From: Rhodospirillales bacterium
GTDB lineage: Bacteria > Pseudomonadota > Alphaproteobacteria > SP197
Reading direction: 5' to 3'
Assembly: GCA_014323865.1 (NCBI GenBank)
Contig: JACONG010000016.1
Location: forward strand, 379,982-443,981
Length of the DNA stretch: 64,000 nt
The notes below the pieces were generated by a model. The model was not told where the DNA came from. It made no database searches and saw nothing but the letters and a program-made list of their open reading frames with translations. Below, in pieces: positions 16,456-23,986 of this stretch (its first letter is position 1; every line of letters starts with the position of its first letter). The translations under genes were made by a program, and so were the position numbers.

Positions 16456-16559
16456 TGTCATCCCGGCCGAGTAAGGCGAGAGCCGGGATCCCGTCACGCC
16501 CGGGTGGTGCGGACCGAGAGCCGGGATCATCGTCGCTTTGCGACTTGTCCGGGATGACA
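16456..16559. repeat. Intergenic TGTCATCCCGG inverted repeat element
   Basis: TGTCATCCCGG (16456-16466) and its exact reverse complement CCGGGATGACA (16549-16559) bound a 104-base element. Inside it GAGAGCCGGGATC-type sequence occurs twice. Related copies lie at 43067-43105 and 47466-47524. Such elements are common between genes in alphaproteobacteria. This copy follows ychF and may terminate that operon. Confidence 0.8.
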
Positions 16560-16607
16560 CTGTTTGGTGTAATGCCGACTGTCTGGGACGAACAGAGGGC
16601 CCGAGCA

Positions 16608-16806
16608 ATGGGTGCATGGATCGATCTCACGCTGGTGACGGCCATGGCTTCAAGGCTTGGCGTGCAACACCGGAGGCGCCGCGCAGGGCGATCATCGTCC
16701 TGCAGGAGATCTTCGGCGTCAACGGCCACATCCGATCCGATCGCTTGGTCGACGGCTTCGCGGCCGACGGCTACGATACGATTGCGCCGTCGCTCTATTC
16801 TCGCGG
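16608..16806 (+). pseudogene. Dienelactone hydrolase family protein, N-terminal remnant
   Basis: ATG 16608 opens MGAWIDLT; after a frameshift at about 16635 the sequence reads GDGHGFKAWRATPEAPRRAI, then IVLQEIFGVNGHIRSDRLVD and GFAADGYDTIAPSLYSR. This is the N-terminal third of a dienelactone hydrolase, including the LQEIFG segment. Homology stops at about 16806, where the sequence passes into the accessory chaperone module. The catalytic Cys, Asp and His lie further along and are absent. Truncation plus a frameshift make this a dead gene whose end marks the left edge of the insert. Confidence 0.8.
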
Positions 16807-16814
16807 TTTTGGTC

Positions 16815-17750
16815 GTGAGCTTGATAGTGCTTTGTTACCCAATCTCTGGACCTGATGTCGCATCAGGACATGAGGTCCAGAGTTCGGATGCAAGCCACGG
16901 AGAACAGACACAGAATAACAGCCCGCATCCTGATCCCGATCAGGTGTCGGTGGCAGACGAAGACGAGACCCAAGCGACCGCTCGGCCAGATGAAGACACA
17001 ATGCTTGTCGCCGGCGCGGGTACATTAGGCGTTTCTCCCTGGCTTGTGGCGATCACTGTGGCGATCACACTGATATCGCTCTGCGTGTTGGCCGTTGCCG
17101 GGCTGACGGTTGTTTTTGTGATTCGTTGGCGCAACGTCGGCCAGTTTGCAGGTGTACCGAACGTGATTCCGGGAGACCGGGAATACCTGCGCCAGCAACA
17201 GGACTCACCGCAGTGGTGGTTCGACGGACTGATTCGGTCGCTCGCGCTGGAACAACAGAAGCATACGAACCACCAGCACGAAACCGTCACTTCGAAATTG
17301 GATGATGTACTTGAATCTCTGGGGATCTTTCATCAGGAACTCACGAAGAAGGACACCGACATTAAGCGTCTGAAAGAGGGTGGCGACGCCATTGTGTTCA
17401 AAAGGTACCTTGGAAGGTTCCTGAGAGTTCTGCGGAAGATGGAGGACCAGGCCGAGGACATGGAGCGGAACGGACAGGACGCCACGATGCTGAAGCAGTT
17501 CGCGGAGCTGCTGGAGGACGCCCTCTTTGAATGCGGTCTGAAACGATACCGACCCGACATCGATTCCAAATATCAGGATGCGCCCGGTGTTGCGGATCGA
17601 CCGAAGGAGATCCCGACAGACGATCCCGCCAAACATCTCCACATCGCAGAGATTCTGTGCGAAGGCTTCGTCATGCACACGGCCGCAGGGCCTGAGTATG
17701 TACAGAAGGCGGAGGTTAGTATGTTCGTTCATCAGGCTCGCGAGGATTGA
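16815..17750 (+). CDS. Membrane-anchored GrpE-like nucleotide exchange factor
   Basis: The product is 311 residues from GTG 16815. A hydrophobic N-terminus (SLIVLCYPISG) resembles a short signal or first membrane helix. A polar linker rich in D/E/S/T/P runs to about residue 70, followed by a long membrane helix at about 75-103 (ITVAITLISLCVLAVAGLTV). The cytoplasmic part has a coiled coil (about 135-185) and a C-terminal GrpE-head-like section: LLEDALFECGLKRYRPDI, EIPTDDPAKHLHIAEILCEG and EYVQKAEVSMFV. In GrpE the same order (PTDDP, then hydrophobic strands, then A-x-V) ends the protein. It is two bases from the Hsp70 gene, supporting a role as its exchange factor. ATG 17001 or TTG 16809 are alternative starts. 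Confidence 0.65.
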   Translation: MSLIVLCYPISGPDVASGHEVQSSDASHGEQTQNNSPHPDPDQVSVADEDETQATARPDEDTMLVAGAGTLGVSPWLVAITVAITLISLCVLAVAGLTVVFVIRWRNVGQFAGVPNVIPGDREYLRQQQDSPQWWFDGLIRSLALEQQKHTNHQHETVTSKLDDVLESLGIFHQELTKKDTDIKRLKEGGDAIVFKRYLGRFLRVLRKMEDQAEDMERNGQDATMLKQFAELLEDALFECGLKRYRPDIDSKYQDAPGVADRPKEIPTDDPAKHLHIAEILCEGFVMHTAAGPEYVQKAEVSMFVHQARED

Positions 17751-17752
17751 GC

Positions 17753-19267
17753 ATGTCTGCAATCGTTGGCATTGACCTTGGCACCACATTCTCGGCGGTC
17801 GCAAGACTGGATGATGCAGGACGCCCTGTCATCGTTCACAACTCGGACGGTCAGAACATCACGCCGTCGGTTGTTCACTTTGAAGAGCCGGGTTCACCCG
17901 CGATCGTCGGCGAAGACGCGCGAAAAATGTGGGGTCGGGATAACACCCGAACGCAGGGCCGGTTCAAACGCGACATGGGAACCGATACGATGTATCGGAT
18001 GGTCGCCGGGGATATGACGCCGACGGACCTTAGTGCGCTGGTCCTGCAACACCTGAAGTCGGAAACGGAGAAGGCCATCGGACCAATCCGCGAGGCGGTT
18101 GTAACCGTTCCGGCCAACTTCGCCAACGAGGCCCGCGAGGCAACACTCGCCGCTGCAAAAATCGCCGGGATCGACGTCAAATACATCATCAACGAGCCGA
18201 CCGCTGCGGCACTCTACTTCGCCCAGCAATCGGGTGAGGATCTCAGAGGCATCTATGCCGTGTTCGACCTTGGCGGTGGCACCTTTGATGTCACGATCGT
18301 GCGCGTGTCGGGGAACGACGTCGAGGTCCTGGGTTCCGAAGGTGTCAGCAGACTTGGCGGTGACGACTTTGACGGAAAGATGTTTGATCTCGTCGCAGCA
18401 AGATACGCGGAGATGACGGGTGGCCAGCTGACCAAGGACGACTACCCTCCAAGCGATCGCGAGGAAGACAAGAAGTCGCTCAGTCGGCGCGAGAAGGTCA
18501 TCGTCAATACAGTCGGTGATCAGGGCCGGATCAACATCAACGTGACGCGGGCTGAATACGAAGAGGCGATCTCGTCTTACATCGCTCAGATGGAAATGCT
18601 CTGCGAGTCGGCTCTTGATGAAGCCAAGGTCAGTGCTTCCCGGATCGACGCTGTGATCCTTGCCGGCGGTAGCACCCGAACGCCTGCGGTACAGAGATGT
18701 GTTTCTGAGGTCTTCGGCAAAAACCCTGTCACCTTCGGCAACCCAGACGAAGTTGTCGCACTAGGTGCCGCACTCTATGCGGCGGTCCGGACTGACAGCG
18801 CCAATCTCAACGCGATTCAACGGAACAAGATCGAAAGCATCAATCTTCAAGAGAGGACACATAAGTACTTTGGCACGCTGGCGATCAGGTTCAACGAGGA
18901 ACGTCAAAGCAAAGAGCTTGAGAACTCGATCGTGATTGCAAAGAACACGAAAATCCCGTGTTCGGTCTCCAAATCCTATTACACGCGCGCGGACGGCCAG
19001 ACTCAGGTTACGTGCCGAATCACGGAAGCCAATGCGCCGGAGAGCGATCCGAAATTCGTCAAGATCATCTGGGAAGGCGATCTGACGCTGCCAGCTGGAC
19101 GACCTGCCGGTCAGGAGATCAGCGTCACGTTCAGCTACACCGACAATCAGACGATGCGATGTACCTTCACCGACGTCGCAACAGGCACATCAAAGGAGAT
19201 TGACCTTTCGATGGCGCAAAGCGAAGCGGTCCAAGAGTTTGATATTGAGAAGTTCACGGTGGAATAA
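17753..19267 (+). CDS. Short Hsp70-family (DnaK-like) protein
   Basis: A 504-residue Hsp70. The nucleotide-binding domain is complete: phosphate 1 loop VGIDLGTTFSAV (residues 5-16), INEPTAAALYFAQ, phosphate 2 AVFDLGGGTFDVTIV (about 170-184) and the adenosine motif ILAGGSTRTPAVQ (about 301-313). DnaK is about 130 residues longer. Here the DVLLLDV-type linker is replaced by NKIESINLQERTHKYFG. The substrate-binding part is only about 130 residues of beta-rich sequence, with no helical lid. It ends 3 bases before the TerB/J gene. It is not the housekeeping dnaK. It most likely works with its neighbours, a GrpE-like protein and a J-like protein, on membrane-proximal clients. Confidence 0.9.
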   Translation: MSAIVGIDLGTTFSAVARLDDAGRPVIVHNSDGQNITPSVVHFEEPGSPAIVGEDARKMWGRDNTRTQGRFKRDMGTDTMYRMVAGDMTPTDLSALVLQHLKSETEKAIGPIREAVVTVPANFANEAREATLAAAKIAGIDVKYIINEPTAAALYFAQQSGEDLRGIYAVFDLGGGTFDVTIVRVSGNDVEVLGSEGVSRLGGDDFDGKMFDLVAARYAEMTGGQLTKDDYPPSDREEDKKSLSRREKVIVNTVGDQGRININVTRAEYEEAISSYIAQMEMLCESALDEAKVSASRIDAVILAGGSTRTPAVQRCVSEVFGKNPVTFGNPDEVVALGAALYAAVRTDSANLNAIQRNKIESINLQERTHKYFGTLAIRFNEERQSKELENSIVIAKNTKIPCSVSKSYYTRADGQTQVTCRITEANAPESDPKFVKIIWEGDLTLPAGRPAGQEISVTFSYTDNQTMRCTFTDVATGTSKEIDLSMAQSEAVQEFDIEKFTVE

Positions 19268-19270
19268 ACC

Positions 19271-20545
19271 ATGGAAGTATTTCTCGACGTTTGGGTTGCG
19301 CTCTTTATCATCTTTATTATCGTCTGTGGCTTGCTTGGTGCGCTCTCTATATTGTGCAAGGCGGTACTGGGCCTGTTCGGAACTGTCGGCGCTGCCTTTC
19401 GAACAGCGACGGGGCGGGGTTCGTTTACCGAGAACCTTCAGGCCGAGTTTCGCGGACTCAGGCCTTTCGAGATCAAATGCAAGCGGGTCCCCGCCAACAG
19501 CGATGTGTCCTTTGAAGTCATCGAAATCAAGGCCAAGGGCGTGTTCCCTGTTTCCAGACGTCGCAGGCTCGCCTTCATCATTTCTGTCCTTGACGAGACA
19601 ACCGATCAGTTGAAGCCGGTTCACTCGGTTGTCGATGCGTTTCAGGAACCTGAGACCATTTGCTACCAGCACCGCGTTGAGGTCGGGGAGGTCGACCCGG
19701 GTAGCGGTTTCATTTCGTGGGTCCGGGCCGGAGTCGTCGTTCCCGCTATGCTGGTTCCGCCCGTCGGCGGCGAACGCAAGCTCCTTGTCGTCCTGCGCTT
19801 GGTTGATCTTGATCAAAAGGCGAATATCAACAAGGGCTTCGGTGAAAAGAACGATGCTGCCGTTGTGGGTCAGCACGTCCTCCACATCACGCAAACCTTC
19901 AAGACTAAAGGCTACGAGGAACAGGCCGAAGCGGAAAACGAAAGTAGAGCCTTGACCGTCAAACTCGCCGTGGCCGTCGCCATGGCCGATGGCTCTATGG
20001 ACGAAACCGAGGCCCAAACCATCTCTGCCTGGATCACAAAGTCGCTCTCCGAACTTCAGGGAGCTCGCCGGAAACGTGTCAAGGAGGTGAGCAATAAAGC
20101 CTTCAAGGAAGCCTACAAATTGGCGCAGCGATCCGAACTTTCGTTGTCTCAGATAACAGCCGACCTCAACGTGCTTGCTGATGAACCATACAAGTATCAG
20201 GCTGTTGAACTCTGCTTTGACGTCATGGCGGCCGATGGGCATGCCGATCCGGACGAGATTGAGACCATCTGCAGAATCGCGTCTGCGTTGGACATCAATT
20301 ACGACGAGTTGCAGAAGATGAAAGACCAGAGAATGGTCAAACTCTCCCCTCCAACGGGCGCCGAAAGTGCGGAGGCGATACTCGGCATTGACCCCACTTG
20401 GTCAAAAGAGCGTGTGCGAAAGTACCTGCGAGGCGAGTTTGCCAAATGGAACGGACGACTTAACTCTCTCTCCGATCCGGACGAACGACAACGAGCCCAA
20501 GAAATGCTCAATCTGATTGCAGAACAGCGCAAAAAACATGTGTGA
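19271..20545 (+). CDS. Membrane protein with TerB domain and degenerate J-like domain
   Basis: The 424-residue protein starts with a membrane helix at about 5-38 (ALFIIFIIVCGLLGALSIL). A beta-rich region to about 215 follows that I do not recognise. A TerB-like helical domain (about 225-345) has AVAMADGSMDETEAQTISAW and a second half FDVMAADGHADPDEIETICR; this D-G-x-x-D-x-x-E pattern is the TerB acidic metal-binding signature. The last 60 residues fit a J domain: AILGIDPTWSKERVRKYLRG, EFAKWNGRLN, then RAQEMLNLIAEQRKKH. The HPD tripeptide is replaced by NGR. DjlA also joins TerB and J domains on a membrane anchor. The end overlaps the peptidase start by 8 bases. Confidence 0.75.
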   Translation: MEVFLDVWVALFIIFIIVCGLLGALSILCKAVLGLFGTVGAAFRTATGRGSFTENLQAEFRGLRPFEIKCKRVPANSDVSFEVIEIKAKGVFPVSRRRRLAFIISVLDETTDQLKPVHSVVDAFQEPETICYQHRVEVGEVDPGSGFISWVRAGVVVPAMLVPPVGGERKLLVVLRLVDLDQKANINKGFGEKNDAAVVGQHVLHITQTFKTKGYEEQAEAENESRALTVKLAVAVAMADGSMDETEAQTISAWITKSLSELQGARRKRVKEVSNKAFKEAYKLAQRSELSLSQITADLNVLADEPYKYQAVELCFDVMAADGHADPDEIETICRIASALDINYDELQKMKDQRMVKLSPPTGAESAEAILGIDPTWSKERVRKYLRGEFAKWNGRLNSLSDPDERQRAQEMLNLIAEQRKKHV

Positions 20546-21638
20546 CAGATTTGAGGTCGCAAGACGGTTCGCTATGGCGATCCGCTACGGCGGTGAAGTT
20601 GATCTCGCCAGCCAAAGCGTGAACATCGCACGGTCATCGGTGTGGTCGCATCTGAGCAGTACCGGTCTGGAGATTTCGCACGACGTATTACCGACCGTCG
20701 CCAGTGTCCTTGACGATTGCTGCGATCGTCTCTTGTTGCCTCCGGACGGCGTTCGCGGGTTCGTGTATGCCGCGCCCGAGATTCAAGCATCGTGCATGCC
20801 GATTGATGATCAATCCTGCGTCATCAGGCTTTCCTCGAGCCTCGTGGAAAAGTTTGATGACCAGGAACTCGCCTTCATCATCGGTCATGAGTTGGGGCAT
20901 TTTCTTCTGGGTCATGGCCTAGCCGATGAGCCCGAACGCGGTACTGTTGAGTATTTTGCCCTCTCTCGAGCGCAGGAACTGTCGTGTGATCGCATCGGAC
21001 TTGTATCGGCCCGCAATCCGGATGCTGCGTTGCGGTCGATCATGAAGATGACCTCCGGATTGTCGGCAGACTATCTACGATTCGATATTGCTGCCTATCT
21101 TCGTGATACAATGCGCACAGTCAAGGCATATACTGAATGCAACATAGCTTTTGCCACACACCCAAGCATGCCTGTTCGCACACGCTGCCTTTTGTGGTTT
21201 TCTCAGTTTGCGGAGACTCACTATCCCAGATTTGACAGCAAGGAAGCCCAAACTGACTTTGAAGTTCTTGATCATCGGGTTCGTAGTGATGTCACTCGCT
21301 ACGTTGAGAAGCCGGTAACATCCATGATTGAAACCACAAGAAGGCGCGTTTCAAGTTGGATCTGGCTCGCCGCAGCTGTCAGCGACGGAAAGCTGTCCCG
21401 TCGGGAGCAGGATACCTTGACGGAGAAGTTCGGCGCTGACTTCGTGAACAAGGCGCGAAGGAACTTCACCGGACTGAGTAGCGATGACGTACGGTTGTTC
21501 GTTTGCGAGCGGGCAAGAGCAGAGATCGGCGAACTTCTCACAATGGCGCCGAGCACTTCAAAGACCTTCGTCGACGATGAGATAAATGCCAGCGAGATTG
21601 AATTTCTGCCGGAGGGAATGAAGAGCGTGGTTCGCTGA
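20538..21638 (+). CDS. M48-family zinc metallopeptidase
   Basis: The 366-residue protein has the zinc motif AFIIGHELGHFLLGHG (HExxH) at about residues 115-130 and the third-ligand helix SRAQELSCDRIGL about 45 residues later. This pattern is that of M48 (Ste24/HtpX/BepA-like) peptidases. A further HPSMPVRTRCL segment matches the conserved H-P-x-x-x-x-R of the family. No membrane helices are predicted before the active site, unlike HtpX. The last 130 residues contain IWLAAAVSDGKLSRREQDTL, which resembles a TerB helix pair. ATG 20538 overlaps the TerB/J stop by 8 bases, so translation is coupled. It is the last gene of the module. Confidence 0.85.
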   Translation: MCDRFEVARRFAMAIRYGGEVDLASQSVNIARSSVWSHLSSTGLEISHDVLPTVASVLDDCCDRLLLPPDGVRGFVYAAPEIQASCMPIDDQSCVIRLSSSLVEKFDDQELAFIIGHELGHFLLGHGLADEPERGTVEYFALSRAQELSCDRIGLVSARNPDAALRSIMKMTSGLSADYLRFDIAAYLRDTMRTVKAYTECNIAFATHPSMPVRTRCLLWFSQFAETHYPRFDSKEAQTDFEVLDHRVRSDVTRYVEKPVTSMIETTRRRVSSWIWLAAAVSDGKLSRREQDTLTEKFGADFVNKARRNFTGLSSDDVRLFVCERARAEIGELLTMAPSTSKTFVDDEINASEIEFLPEGMKSVVR

Positions 21639-22371: not shown

Positions 22372-23118
22372 ATGAACCCCGAGGAGGTTTCCGAACTGAT
22401 CGCGCGCGAGAACACGCGTTTTAGCCAATCCCGTCCTCGTTCGGCCGACCTGCTGGAAAGGCGACAGCATCAATGCTGTCGGGTGTACCCATGTCCTGGA
22501 TGCGCGGGCTCATGCACCACGATCCGGTCCATGTCGTGTCGGGCAGCAGCGCCGTGTTCACCGACGTCGACGGTCATAGCTACATCGACTTCAACCATGC
22601 CGATCTGTCGTCGACCGTTGGCTACGGCATCAAGGTCGTGACCGATGCCATCGCGCCACGCATGGCCGACGGCGCACAGTTCCTGCTTCCCGTCGAGGAT
22701 TCGATCTGGGTTTCCGAGGAACTCGGCTGTCGTTTTGGGCCGAGTCACTGGCAACACACACTTTCGGCATCGGCAGCCAACACGGAGGCGATCCGGCTGT
22801 CGCGCATGGCCACCAGCCGGGACGGCGTCCTGATGTTCGACGGCAGCTATCACGGTCACATCGGCAAGACCTTGGTCAACTGCTGCCATGAGGAGCCGCA
22901 GTCGACCTCGCTGGACATGGCACGCGACCACGGCCGGCACACCACTGTGGTGCCGTTCAACGAACTCGCGGCGTCCGAGATGGTGCTGGCGAAAGGTGAA
23001 ACCGCCTGCGTGATGATCGAACCCGCGCTGACCAACGTGAATCTCATCTTGCCACAGGACAGCTTCATCGCCGACGAGACCCATACGCACATGTTCGCCT
23101 TTGGCGGGCTCGTCCCCC
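22372..23118 (+). pseudogene. Class III aminotransferase (GSA aminomutase-like), frameshifted and truncated
   Basis: ATG 22372, preceded by GAAGGAG, opens MNPEEVSELIARENTRFSQS. A frameshift at about 22453 is needed to reach ATASMLSGVPMSWMRGLM. The reading continues FTDVDGHSYIDFNHADLSST, GSYHGHIGKTLVN and CVMIEPALTNVNLILPQDSF, matching glutamate-1-semialdehyde-like aminotransferases. Homology stops at about 23118, before the PLP lysine region and C-terminal domain, where the opposing VOC gene begins. With the catalytic lysine missing, the product could not be active. Confidence 0.82.
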
Positions 23119-23137
23119 GTCCGGCTCTGGGTCTCGG

Positions 23138-23986
23138 TCAGCTCTCGAACACTAGGGCGATGCCGCAGGCGTCTTCGGCCGCGACCATCACCGATGCCGC
23201 ATCCCGCAGAATGGGCACGCCGCTTTTGGCAAGGTGCCCGGCGGTATTGCCCAGGTCATTTACGGCAAGCGTGACCACGGCCGGGCACCGTGCTTCGCCG
23301 GGCACCGGCAGGAGATCGGGGTAAAGCGCATTGAGATCGTCGTGGCTTGCGAAGACAACCGTCTGACCGCCAGCACGAACCGTGACGGTGTTATCGGTCA
23401 TGGCGACGGCTGCGCCACCGAACAGCCGCTCCAGGGCGGCAACACTGGACAGTGGCTCCGCTGCCGGAATGACGACACTCGCGATCCGGCGGGCGCCGTT
23501 GGGATGGCGCAACCAGTCAGGTCGGCGCACGAGTTCGGGCGTGAGGTGCCGGCACAGGAACATCGGGATCAGCGGTGTCGCGTCAGCCGGAAGATGGAGA
23601 ATGTGGAAGCGCGGCTCGCTGGTACCCTCGTCACCTTCCAGCAGGCGTGAAAGATCCTTCGGATCGTCCGGCTCGATCCCGGCCTCGCGAAGTGTGGCGG
23701 CCGACGCCTCGGCATCTTTCGAGGCAAAGGCGACAGCGGAAAGCCCCCTACCCTGCTTTCGTTCACCGCGATGCGCGGCATTGGCAGCCAACTCCGAAGG
23801 ATCGACGACACCGATCAGTTCAAGATAGTCGTTCTCGAACATGGTGCAGTAGTTGCCCGTGCCCCACTGCGGATGGCGGCCACGGGGCGTCATGGTGAAG
23901 CCGAGGCGCGCCCAGACGTCGCGCGCACCATCAAGATCGTCGGTATCGACCACAAGATGGTCGATCCCCGAGACGGCACCGGTCAT
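23138..23986 (-). CDS. VOC family protein (glyoxalase-like)
   Basis: The 282-residue protein has an N-terminal VOC/glyoxalase-like domain: IDHLVVDTDDLDGARDVWAR, LGFTMTPRGRHPQWGTGNYC and YLELIGVVDPSE. A second, weaker VOC-like half follows (SSVAALERLFGG, then LAVNDLGNTAGHLAK). This arrangement fits the Glyoxalase_3 group, whose metal-dependent reactions vary. The substrate is not evident. The start lies 1 base after the apt stop, on the same strand as apt and mtnP, so it belongs to that transcript. The stop is just beyond the truncated aminotransferase. Confidence 0.82.
   Translation of the reverse strand: MTGAVSGIDHLVVDTDDLDGARDVWARLGFTMTPRGRHPQWGTGNYCTMFENDYLELIGVVDPSELAANAAHRGERKQGRGLSAVAFASKDAEASAATLREAGIEPDDPKDLSRLLEGDEGTSEPRFHILHLPADATPLIPMFLCRHLTPELVRRPDWLRHPNGARRIASVVIPAAEPLSSVAALERLFGGAAVAMTDNTVTVRAGGQTVVFASHDDLNALYPDLLPVPGEARCPAVVTLAVNDLGNTAGHLAKSGVPILRDAASVMVAAEDACGIALVFES

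Follow-up and report, generated by a model that had tools for sequence, protein, structure and literature searches.

The window analysed here is a 64,000-nucleotide stretch of a Rhodospirillales genome (GCA_014323865.1, contig JACONG010000016.1). Four genes on its forward strand encode a membrane protein, an Hsp70, a membrane-anchored TerB/J-like protein, and an M48-type metalloprotease. They are called genes 1 to 4 below, and Hsp70s encoded by copies of this gene set are called system Hsp70s. The coordinates in the window are as follows.

16782..17750, + strand: gene 1, encoding a membrane protein that has one or more hydrophobic segments, a coiled coil, and, at its C-terminus, a domain weakly similar to GrpE; it adjoins the Hsp70 gene in 11/11 loci with flanks
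17753..19267, + strand: gene 2, Hsp70 of about 504 aa with a complete ATPase domain, a changed linker, SBD-beta, and no lid (PF00012, E 5.3e-85; alignment and residue table)
18116..18118, + strand: Asn at the position of DnaK Y145 (N in 12/12 system Hsp70s; Y in 35/35 DnaK, HscA-like, and HscC proteins)
18182..18184, + strand: Tyr at the position of DnaK R167, partner of HPD Asp35 (Y, N, F, or Q in 13/13 system Hsp70s; R in 49/49 others)
18776..18778, + strand: Tyr at the position of DnaK Q378, second partner of HPD Asp35 (Y in 12/12 system Hsp70s; Q in 26/26 DnaK, 6/8 HscA-like, and HscC)
19271..20545, + strand: gene 3, membrane-anchored TerB/J-like protein of 424 aa (ORF; TerB PF05099, E 5.5e-14; full-length AlphaFold2 model)
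19274..19408, + strand: N-terminal membrane helix, aa 2-46 (hydrophobic sequence and model)
19463..19906, + strand: predicted beta-sandwich domain, aa 65-212, about 67-210 in the model (AlphaFold2)
19907..20338, + strand: TerB domain, aa 213-356, helices about 215-355 in the model (Pfam; VIA match to 2ou3 and 2h5n)
20360..20542, + strand: J-like domain, a predicted three-helix unit, aa 364-424 (profile comparison, AlphaFold2, Foldseek)
20444..20464, + strand: KWNGRLN at the HPD position, aa 392-398 (family and profile alignments)
20538..21638, + strand: gene 4, M48-type metalloprotease with HELGH (PF01435, E 6.1e-13)

The start of gene 1 is uncertain and may be TTG 16782 or ATG 17001. Four of 11 gene 1 family members matched the Pfam GrpE model (PF01025) below the cut-off, with a best E-value of 3.2e-4, and two spanned the whole domain. 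Comparison by hhalign with E. coli GrpE alone, a single reference sequence, was not significant. These similarities weakly suggest that gene 1 is a candidate nucleotide exchange factor. The ORF of gene 4 opens at TTG 20517 and has an ATG at 20538. HExxH was present in every gene 4 family member.

The order of gene 1, Hsp70, TerB/J-like, and M48 was found in loci retrieved with flanks from Alpha- and Gammaproteobacteria, and no gene for an HPD J protein was observed within the operon in these loci. The sole locus with gene 1 and Hsp70 on the strand opposite TerB/J-like and M48 (L046, 1028-6931) is a short low-coverage contig, and its arrangement reflects either inversion or misassembly.

In the window, the four-gene set is an insertion. 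It sits between ychF and ispZ, which adjoin in some same-genus genomes, and the G+C content falls from about 64% to 53-58% at the set. The set was not found in nine other genomes of the genus, and its distribution outside the genus is sparse, with carriers making up 1/136 in the order of one other carrier. An alignment-based scan of genome contigs found 11 loci. With the single protein as query, a close-relative scan of the contigs found none, and no family members were found on viral contigs or plasmids. A search of 398 phylum genomes for the Hsp70 substrate domain, made to find operon copies whose partner bears HPD, gave the system-type domain in the window's own genome only. At the insertion site, an N-terminal fragment of a dienelactone hydrolase was left (16538-16855, + strand; PF01738 positions 1-54 of 217).

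The host carries ordinary DnaK adjoining DnaJ elsewhere in the genome. It also carries four HPD J proteins elsewhere, including a true DjlA (L051, NHPDT). The J-like/Hsp70 pair is thus an additional system.

In the full-length AlphaFold2 model of gene 3, a membrane helix, a beta-sandwich, the TerB helices, and a terminal three-helix unit spanning aa 364-423 follow one another in this order. TerB was the sole confident Pfam domain, and the full-length fold search was informative for TerB alone; the beta-sandwich gave generic beta-sandwich matches only. Comparison of the tail or the whole protein with PDB sequences gave nothing relevant.

The initial annotation had assigned the C-terminal ~60 residues of the TerB protein to a J domain and placed its start at 20365, which is one base out of frame and gives stops in translation; 20366 is in frame. 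The assignment itself was supported by profile comparison, by the predicted structure, and by a domain order of TM, TerB, and J, which DjlA shares. The Pfam J model (PF00226) matched none of 12 family members even at an E-value of 5, and in the host genome it matched four other loci and not gene 3. The assignment therefore rests on weaker signals that agree with one another.

A profile of the tail was compared with 60 canonical, HPD-bearing J domains from related genomes and E. coli. The hhalign score was 20.6-20.9 (P ~9e-4), with a probability of only 22-24%. Among 105 sliding windows of 75 columns, taken from the alignments of the TerB protein, Hsp70, and gene 1, the J-like tail was the top region, and scores elsewhere were at most 14.0. 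The score was also above all 150 column shuffles, whose maximum was 18.0. The alignment placed W393 on DnaJ Y32 and N-G-R on H-P-D. Against HPD-bearing DjlA proteins, TerB alone scored 48.6, and TerB with the J-like tail scored 60.2 (P 1.4e-8), whereas TerB with 60 shuffled tails reached 53.9 at most. The DjlA alignment passed from TerB into J helices I and II without a break.

AlphaFold2 modeling of the tail gave a J-like fold, with a short helix I and a long antiparallel helix II-III hairpin (pLDDT about 90 over helices). In a Foldseek search of the PDB with this model, the first seven matches were all J domains, although their E-values (0.35 to 1.3) were weak, which is normal for a query of 60 residues. 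In VIA-align, J domains had Z-scores of about 6 and were tied with unrelated helical proteins; 5nro_B (Z 5.9, rmsd 2.4 over 56 residues) did not stand above the unrelated rows. This comparison was therefore left out as evidence.

The predicted tail thus combines helix I and the helix II-III hairpin of canonical J domains with the absence of HPD between helices II and III and of recognition by PF00226. On the profile and model evidence, we regard it as a J domain of the DjlA type that has diverged. Similar to DjlA, gene 3 has an N-terminal membrane helix, TerB, and a C-terminal J in the same order. A difference is that a beta-sandwich is inserted before TerB, and another is that HPD is lost. 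A J-like domain with HPD non-conservatively replaced also places gene 3 with the type IV (pseudo-J) proteins, although the type IV definition demands a clearly recognisable J domain (PMC13254874) and that of gene 3 is recognisable by sensitive comparison only.

Gene 3 reads KWNGRLN at the HPD position, as first annotated. HPD was absent in 14/14 distinct family members from Alpha- and Gammaproteobacteria. The exact NGR was less constant: it occurred in only 4/14, and the others had NNR, SNR, or NSR, or in one member a deletion. The family motif at this site is [KE]-W-[NS]-[GNS]-R, with an invariant tryptophan. Helix III, which comes after it, is conserved (A-Q-x-x-L). The relatives are 32-46% identical and include marine Alphaproteobacteria MAGs, Parahaliea, Alcanivorax, and others. 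In the AlphaFold2 model, helix II runs through the HPD site and no HPD loop is formed. The same extension of helix II into the motif was reported for the P34A J domain in simulations of DnaJ without the HPD proline (PMC13012618).

The mean column conservation of gene 3 was 0.71 in the J-like unit, 0.63 in TerB, and 0.51 in the beta domain. The J-like unit is the most conserved part of the protein and is therefore under selection, which points to function rather than decay. Two simple explanations of the HPD loss were rejected on these data. Decay was ruled out by the top-ranking conservation of the domain, and a change private to the window copy was ruled out by the absence of HPD from every relative. 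The member with the deletion (L047, 6013-7206; the same locus as L006) lacks ten residues at the turn between J-like helices II and III, and in its Hsp70 the R167 position is N.

In DnaK, D35 of HPD bonds with R167 and Q378, H33 bonds with linker residue L391, and the proline of the motif is in contact with P419 (PMC8215388). DnaJ fails to stimulate DnaK carrying Y145A (PMC4595643), and J coupling is disrupted when R167 is substituted (PMC7289447). R167 and Y145 were kept in DnaK (26/26), HscA-like proteins (8/8), and E. coli HscC. The system Hsp70s have lost both, as well as Q378, and the residue replacing R167 is mostly Tyr. D393 was changed to E in 12/12 of them in the common alignment, and D148, K155, L390, and L392 were also lost, with I at L390 in one member. 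The features for J-coupled allostery in DnaK, HscA, and HscC (R167, Y145, D393, and a hydrophobic linker) were replaced in all system Hsp70s examined. E206 and D477, which are J contacts in DnaK, were changed too; positions E206, E217, and D477 are less telling because HscA-like proteins vary there as well.

The catalytic residues of the ATPase domain (K70, E171, T199, and D201) were all present in gene 2, and the system Hsp70s kept them together with P143, R151, and P419. The protein stops after SBD-beta, so that the lid is absent, and the GrpE-signature region is shortened. In another copy of the set (L043, 4372-5870; the same locus as L004), the Hsp70 gene lies in two overlapping frames, probably owing to a sequencing frameshift.

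The initial annotation had left two options, that the J-like domain docks on its own Hsp70 without stimulating it, or that the Hsp70 has co-evolved with it. The second has strong sequence support, as R167, Q378, and other J-response residues are lost and the ATPase site is kept. This support consists of fixed, co-occurring differences between families, and covariation within the family was not shown with about 13 sequences. The sequences and models together suggest that the two proteins are probably a dedicated pair whose trigger interface has been rebuilt on both sides, rather than an Hsp70 with a dead co-chaperone. Some results argue against a rebuilt interface. The losses of E206 and D477 could mean that there is no J-type docking, the J profile probability was only 22-24%, the Foldseek E-values were above 0.1, and three-helix units occur widely. 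The resemblance of gene 1 to GrpE is weak as well.

Under the rebuilt-interface reading, the C-terminal DjlA-type J-like domain, having lost HPD, would serve the Hsp70 encoded beside it. It may dock on this Hsp70 and may control its ATPase. The standard trigger, in which the HPD Asp contacts DnaK R167 and Q378 and the His contacts the linker, would have been replaced in both partners. In the models, Trp393 and Arg396 lie at the far end of the continuous helix II, where they would face Tyr378 and the residue at 167, usually Tyr, possibly through an aromatic/Arg contact. Tentatively, the HPD-less domain might even stimulate its own Hsp70 through this new contact of Trp/Arg with Tyr378 and the aromatic or polar residue at 167, so that the HPD-R167 handshake, regarded as universal, is replaced as a matched pair; we regard this specific form as possible and rather doubtful.

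The four genes probably form a membrane-linked chaperone-protease set. The lidless Hsp70 would bind clients, and gene 1 would probably exchange its nucleotide. The TerB/J-like protein would bring the Hsp70 and its clients to the inner membrane, where the M48 protease, as a putative partner, would receive and cut them.

Docking without stimulation, the first of the two options, seems unlikely. The J-like domain would then act on its own Hsp70 as a scaffold or inhibitor, similar to the case of Pam16 in the mitochondrial import motor, and the trigger would be substrate alone or one of the four HPD J proteins of the host. Pam16, in which DKE or DKS replaces HPD, inhibits and does not stimulate, and a change of HPD to just HPN or QPD is enough to abolish stimulation (PMC13254874). 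However, an Hsp70 without R167, Q378, and Y145 has no normal partner site for an HPD protein, and the operon itself was seen to encode none. The absence of HPD alone does not exclude stimulation either, because a designed HPD-less J-analogue can stimulate Hsc70 (PMC13254874).

It is quite unlikely that the terminal helices make no contact with Hsp70 at all. They would then be an unrelated three-helix tail, or what was once a J domain, whose only role now is to stabilise TerB or to bind M48 or another protein, and the Hsp70 would work independently of J proteins. The lack of a Pfam J match, the weak single-domain scores, and the loss of the J-holding residues E206 and D477 are consistent with such a tail. 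The profile score above all shuffles and other windows, the continuity with DjlA, and the constant linkage to the Hsp70 gene argue against it. A pseudogene, misassembly, or sequencing error is contradicted by the intact ORF and by homologues that share the motif and the gene order across many independent assemblies. No sign of any of these was found for this gene, and they have practically no chance of explaining the locus.

A dedicated pair with a rebuilt interface differs from the known systems that it resembles. DjlA keeps HPD and works with DnaK, whereas gene 3 has no HPD and its own Hsp70 adjoins it. Pam16/Tim16 and other type IV proteins share the J-like fold with HPD replaced; Pam16, a well-studied case, shows that HPD-less J-like proteins were already known, and it pairs with the HPD J protein Pam18 and mitochondrial Hsp70 (PMC13254874). 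Unlike it, the set in the window encodes no HPD J partner, and its dedicated Hsp70 itself lacks the HPD contact residues. HscC with DjlB/DjlC is similar in that a dedicated, divergent Hsp70 has altered-motif membrane J proteins encoded nearby (PMC8215388). HscC is an informative control, because DjlB and DjlC carry HPE, a conservative change, and yet E. coli HscC keeps R167 and Q378, along with Y145 and D393. The DnaK-DnaJ-GrpE system likewise comprises an Hsp70 with its ATPase residues kept, a J protein, and an exchange factor, for which the window has a candidate. The differences are that the window Hsp70 lacks the lid, has a changed linker and a shortened GrpE-signature region, and that the J trigger residues are replaced in both partners.

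No description of the operon was found in the open-access literature searched. A bacterial HPD-less J-like domain with a dedicated Hsp70 that also lacks the HPD contact residues seems to be new. A 2026 review describes HPD as the most conserved J-protein sequence and calls it enigmatic whether its losses were accidental or selected (PMC13254874). The operon offers a natural case in which HPD loss accompanies loss of the Hsp70 residues in contact with HPD, within a set that two proteobacterial classes retain. It also provides a compact bacterial pair for testing Hsp70 control without HPD-R167, and possibly an orthogonal Hsp70/J pair.

A phage-defence role was considered and not adopted. The PADLOC 2023 models gave no match to the system proteins except capP, which matched a short stretch of the protease after HExxH (E 0.0026). 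One operon copy is flanked by a serine recombinase, a Fic protein, and a candidate-defence match (L039, 3-1688 and 10838-13196); such neighbours alone are too little for a claim, and no PADLOC system model covers the set.

Two further observations concern the window itself. Gene 4 (20517-21638, + strand) has a TerB-like looking stretch (AAAVSDGKLSRREQDTL) after the protease domain. The aminotransferase gene adjoining ispZ (22473-23324, + strand) encodes 283 aa, compared with about 460 aa in same-genus genomes. Its product matches only the first ~280 residues of the same-genus proteins, and the gene is probably frameshifted or truncated.
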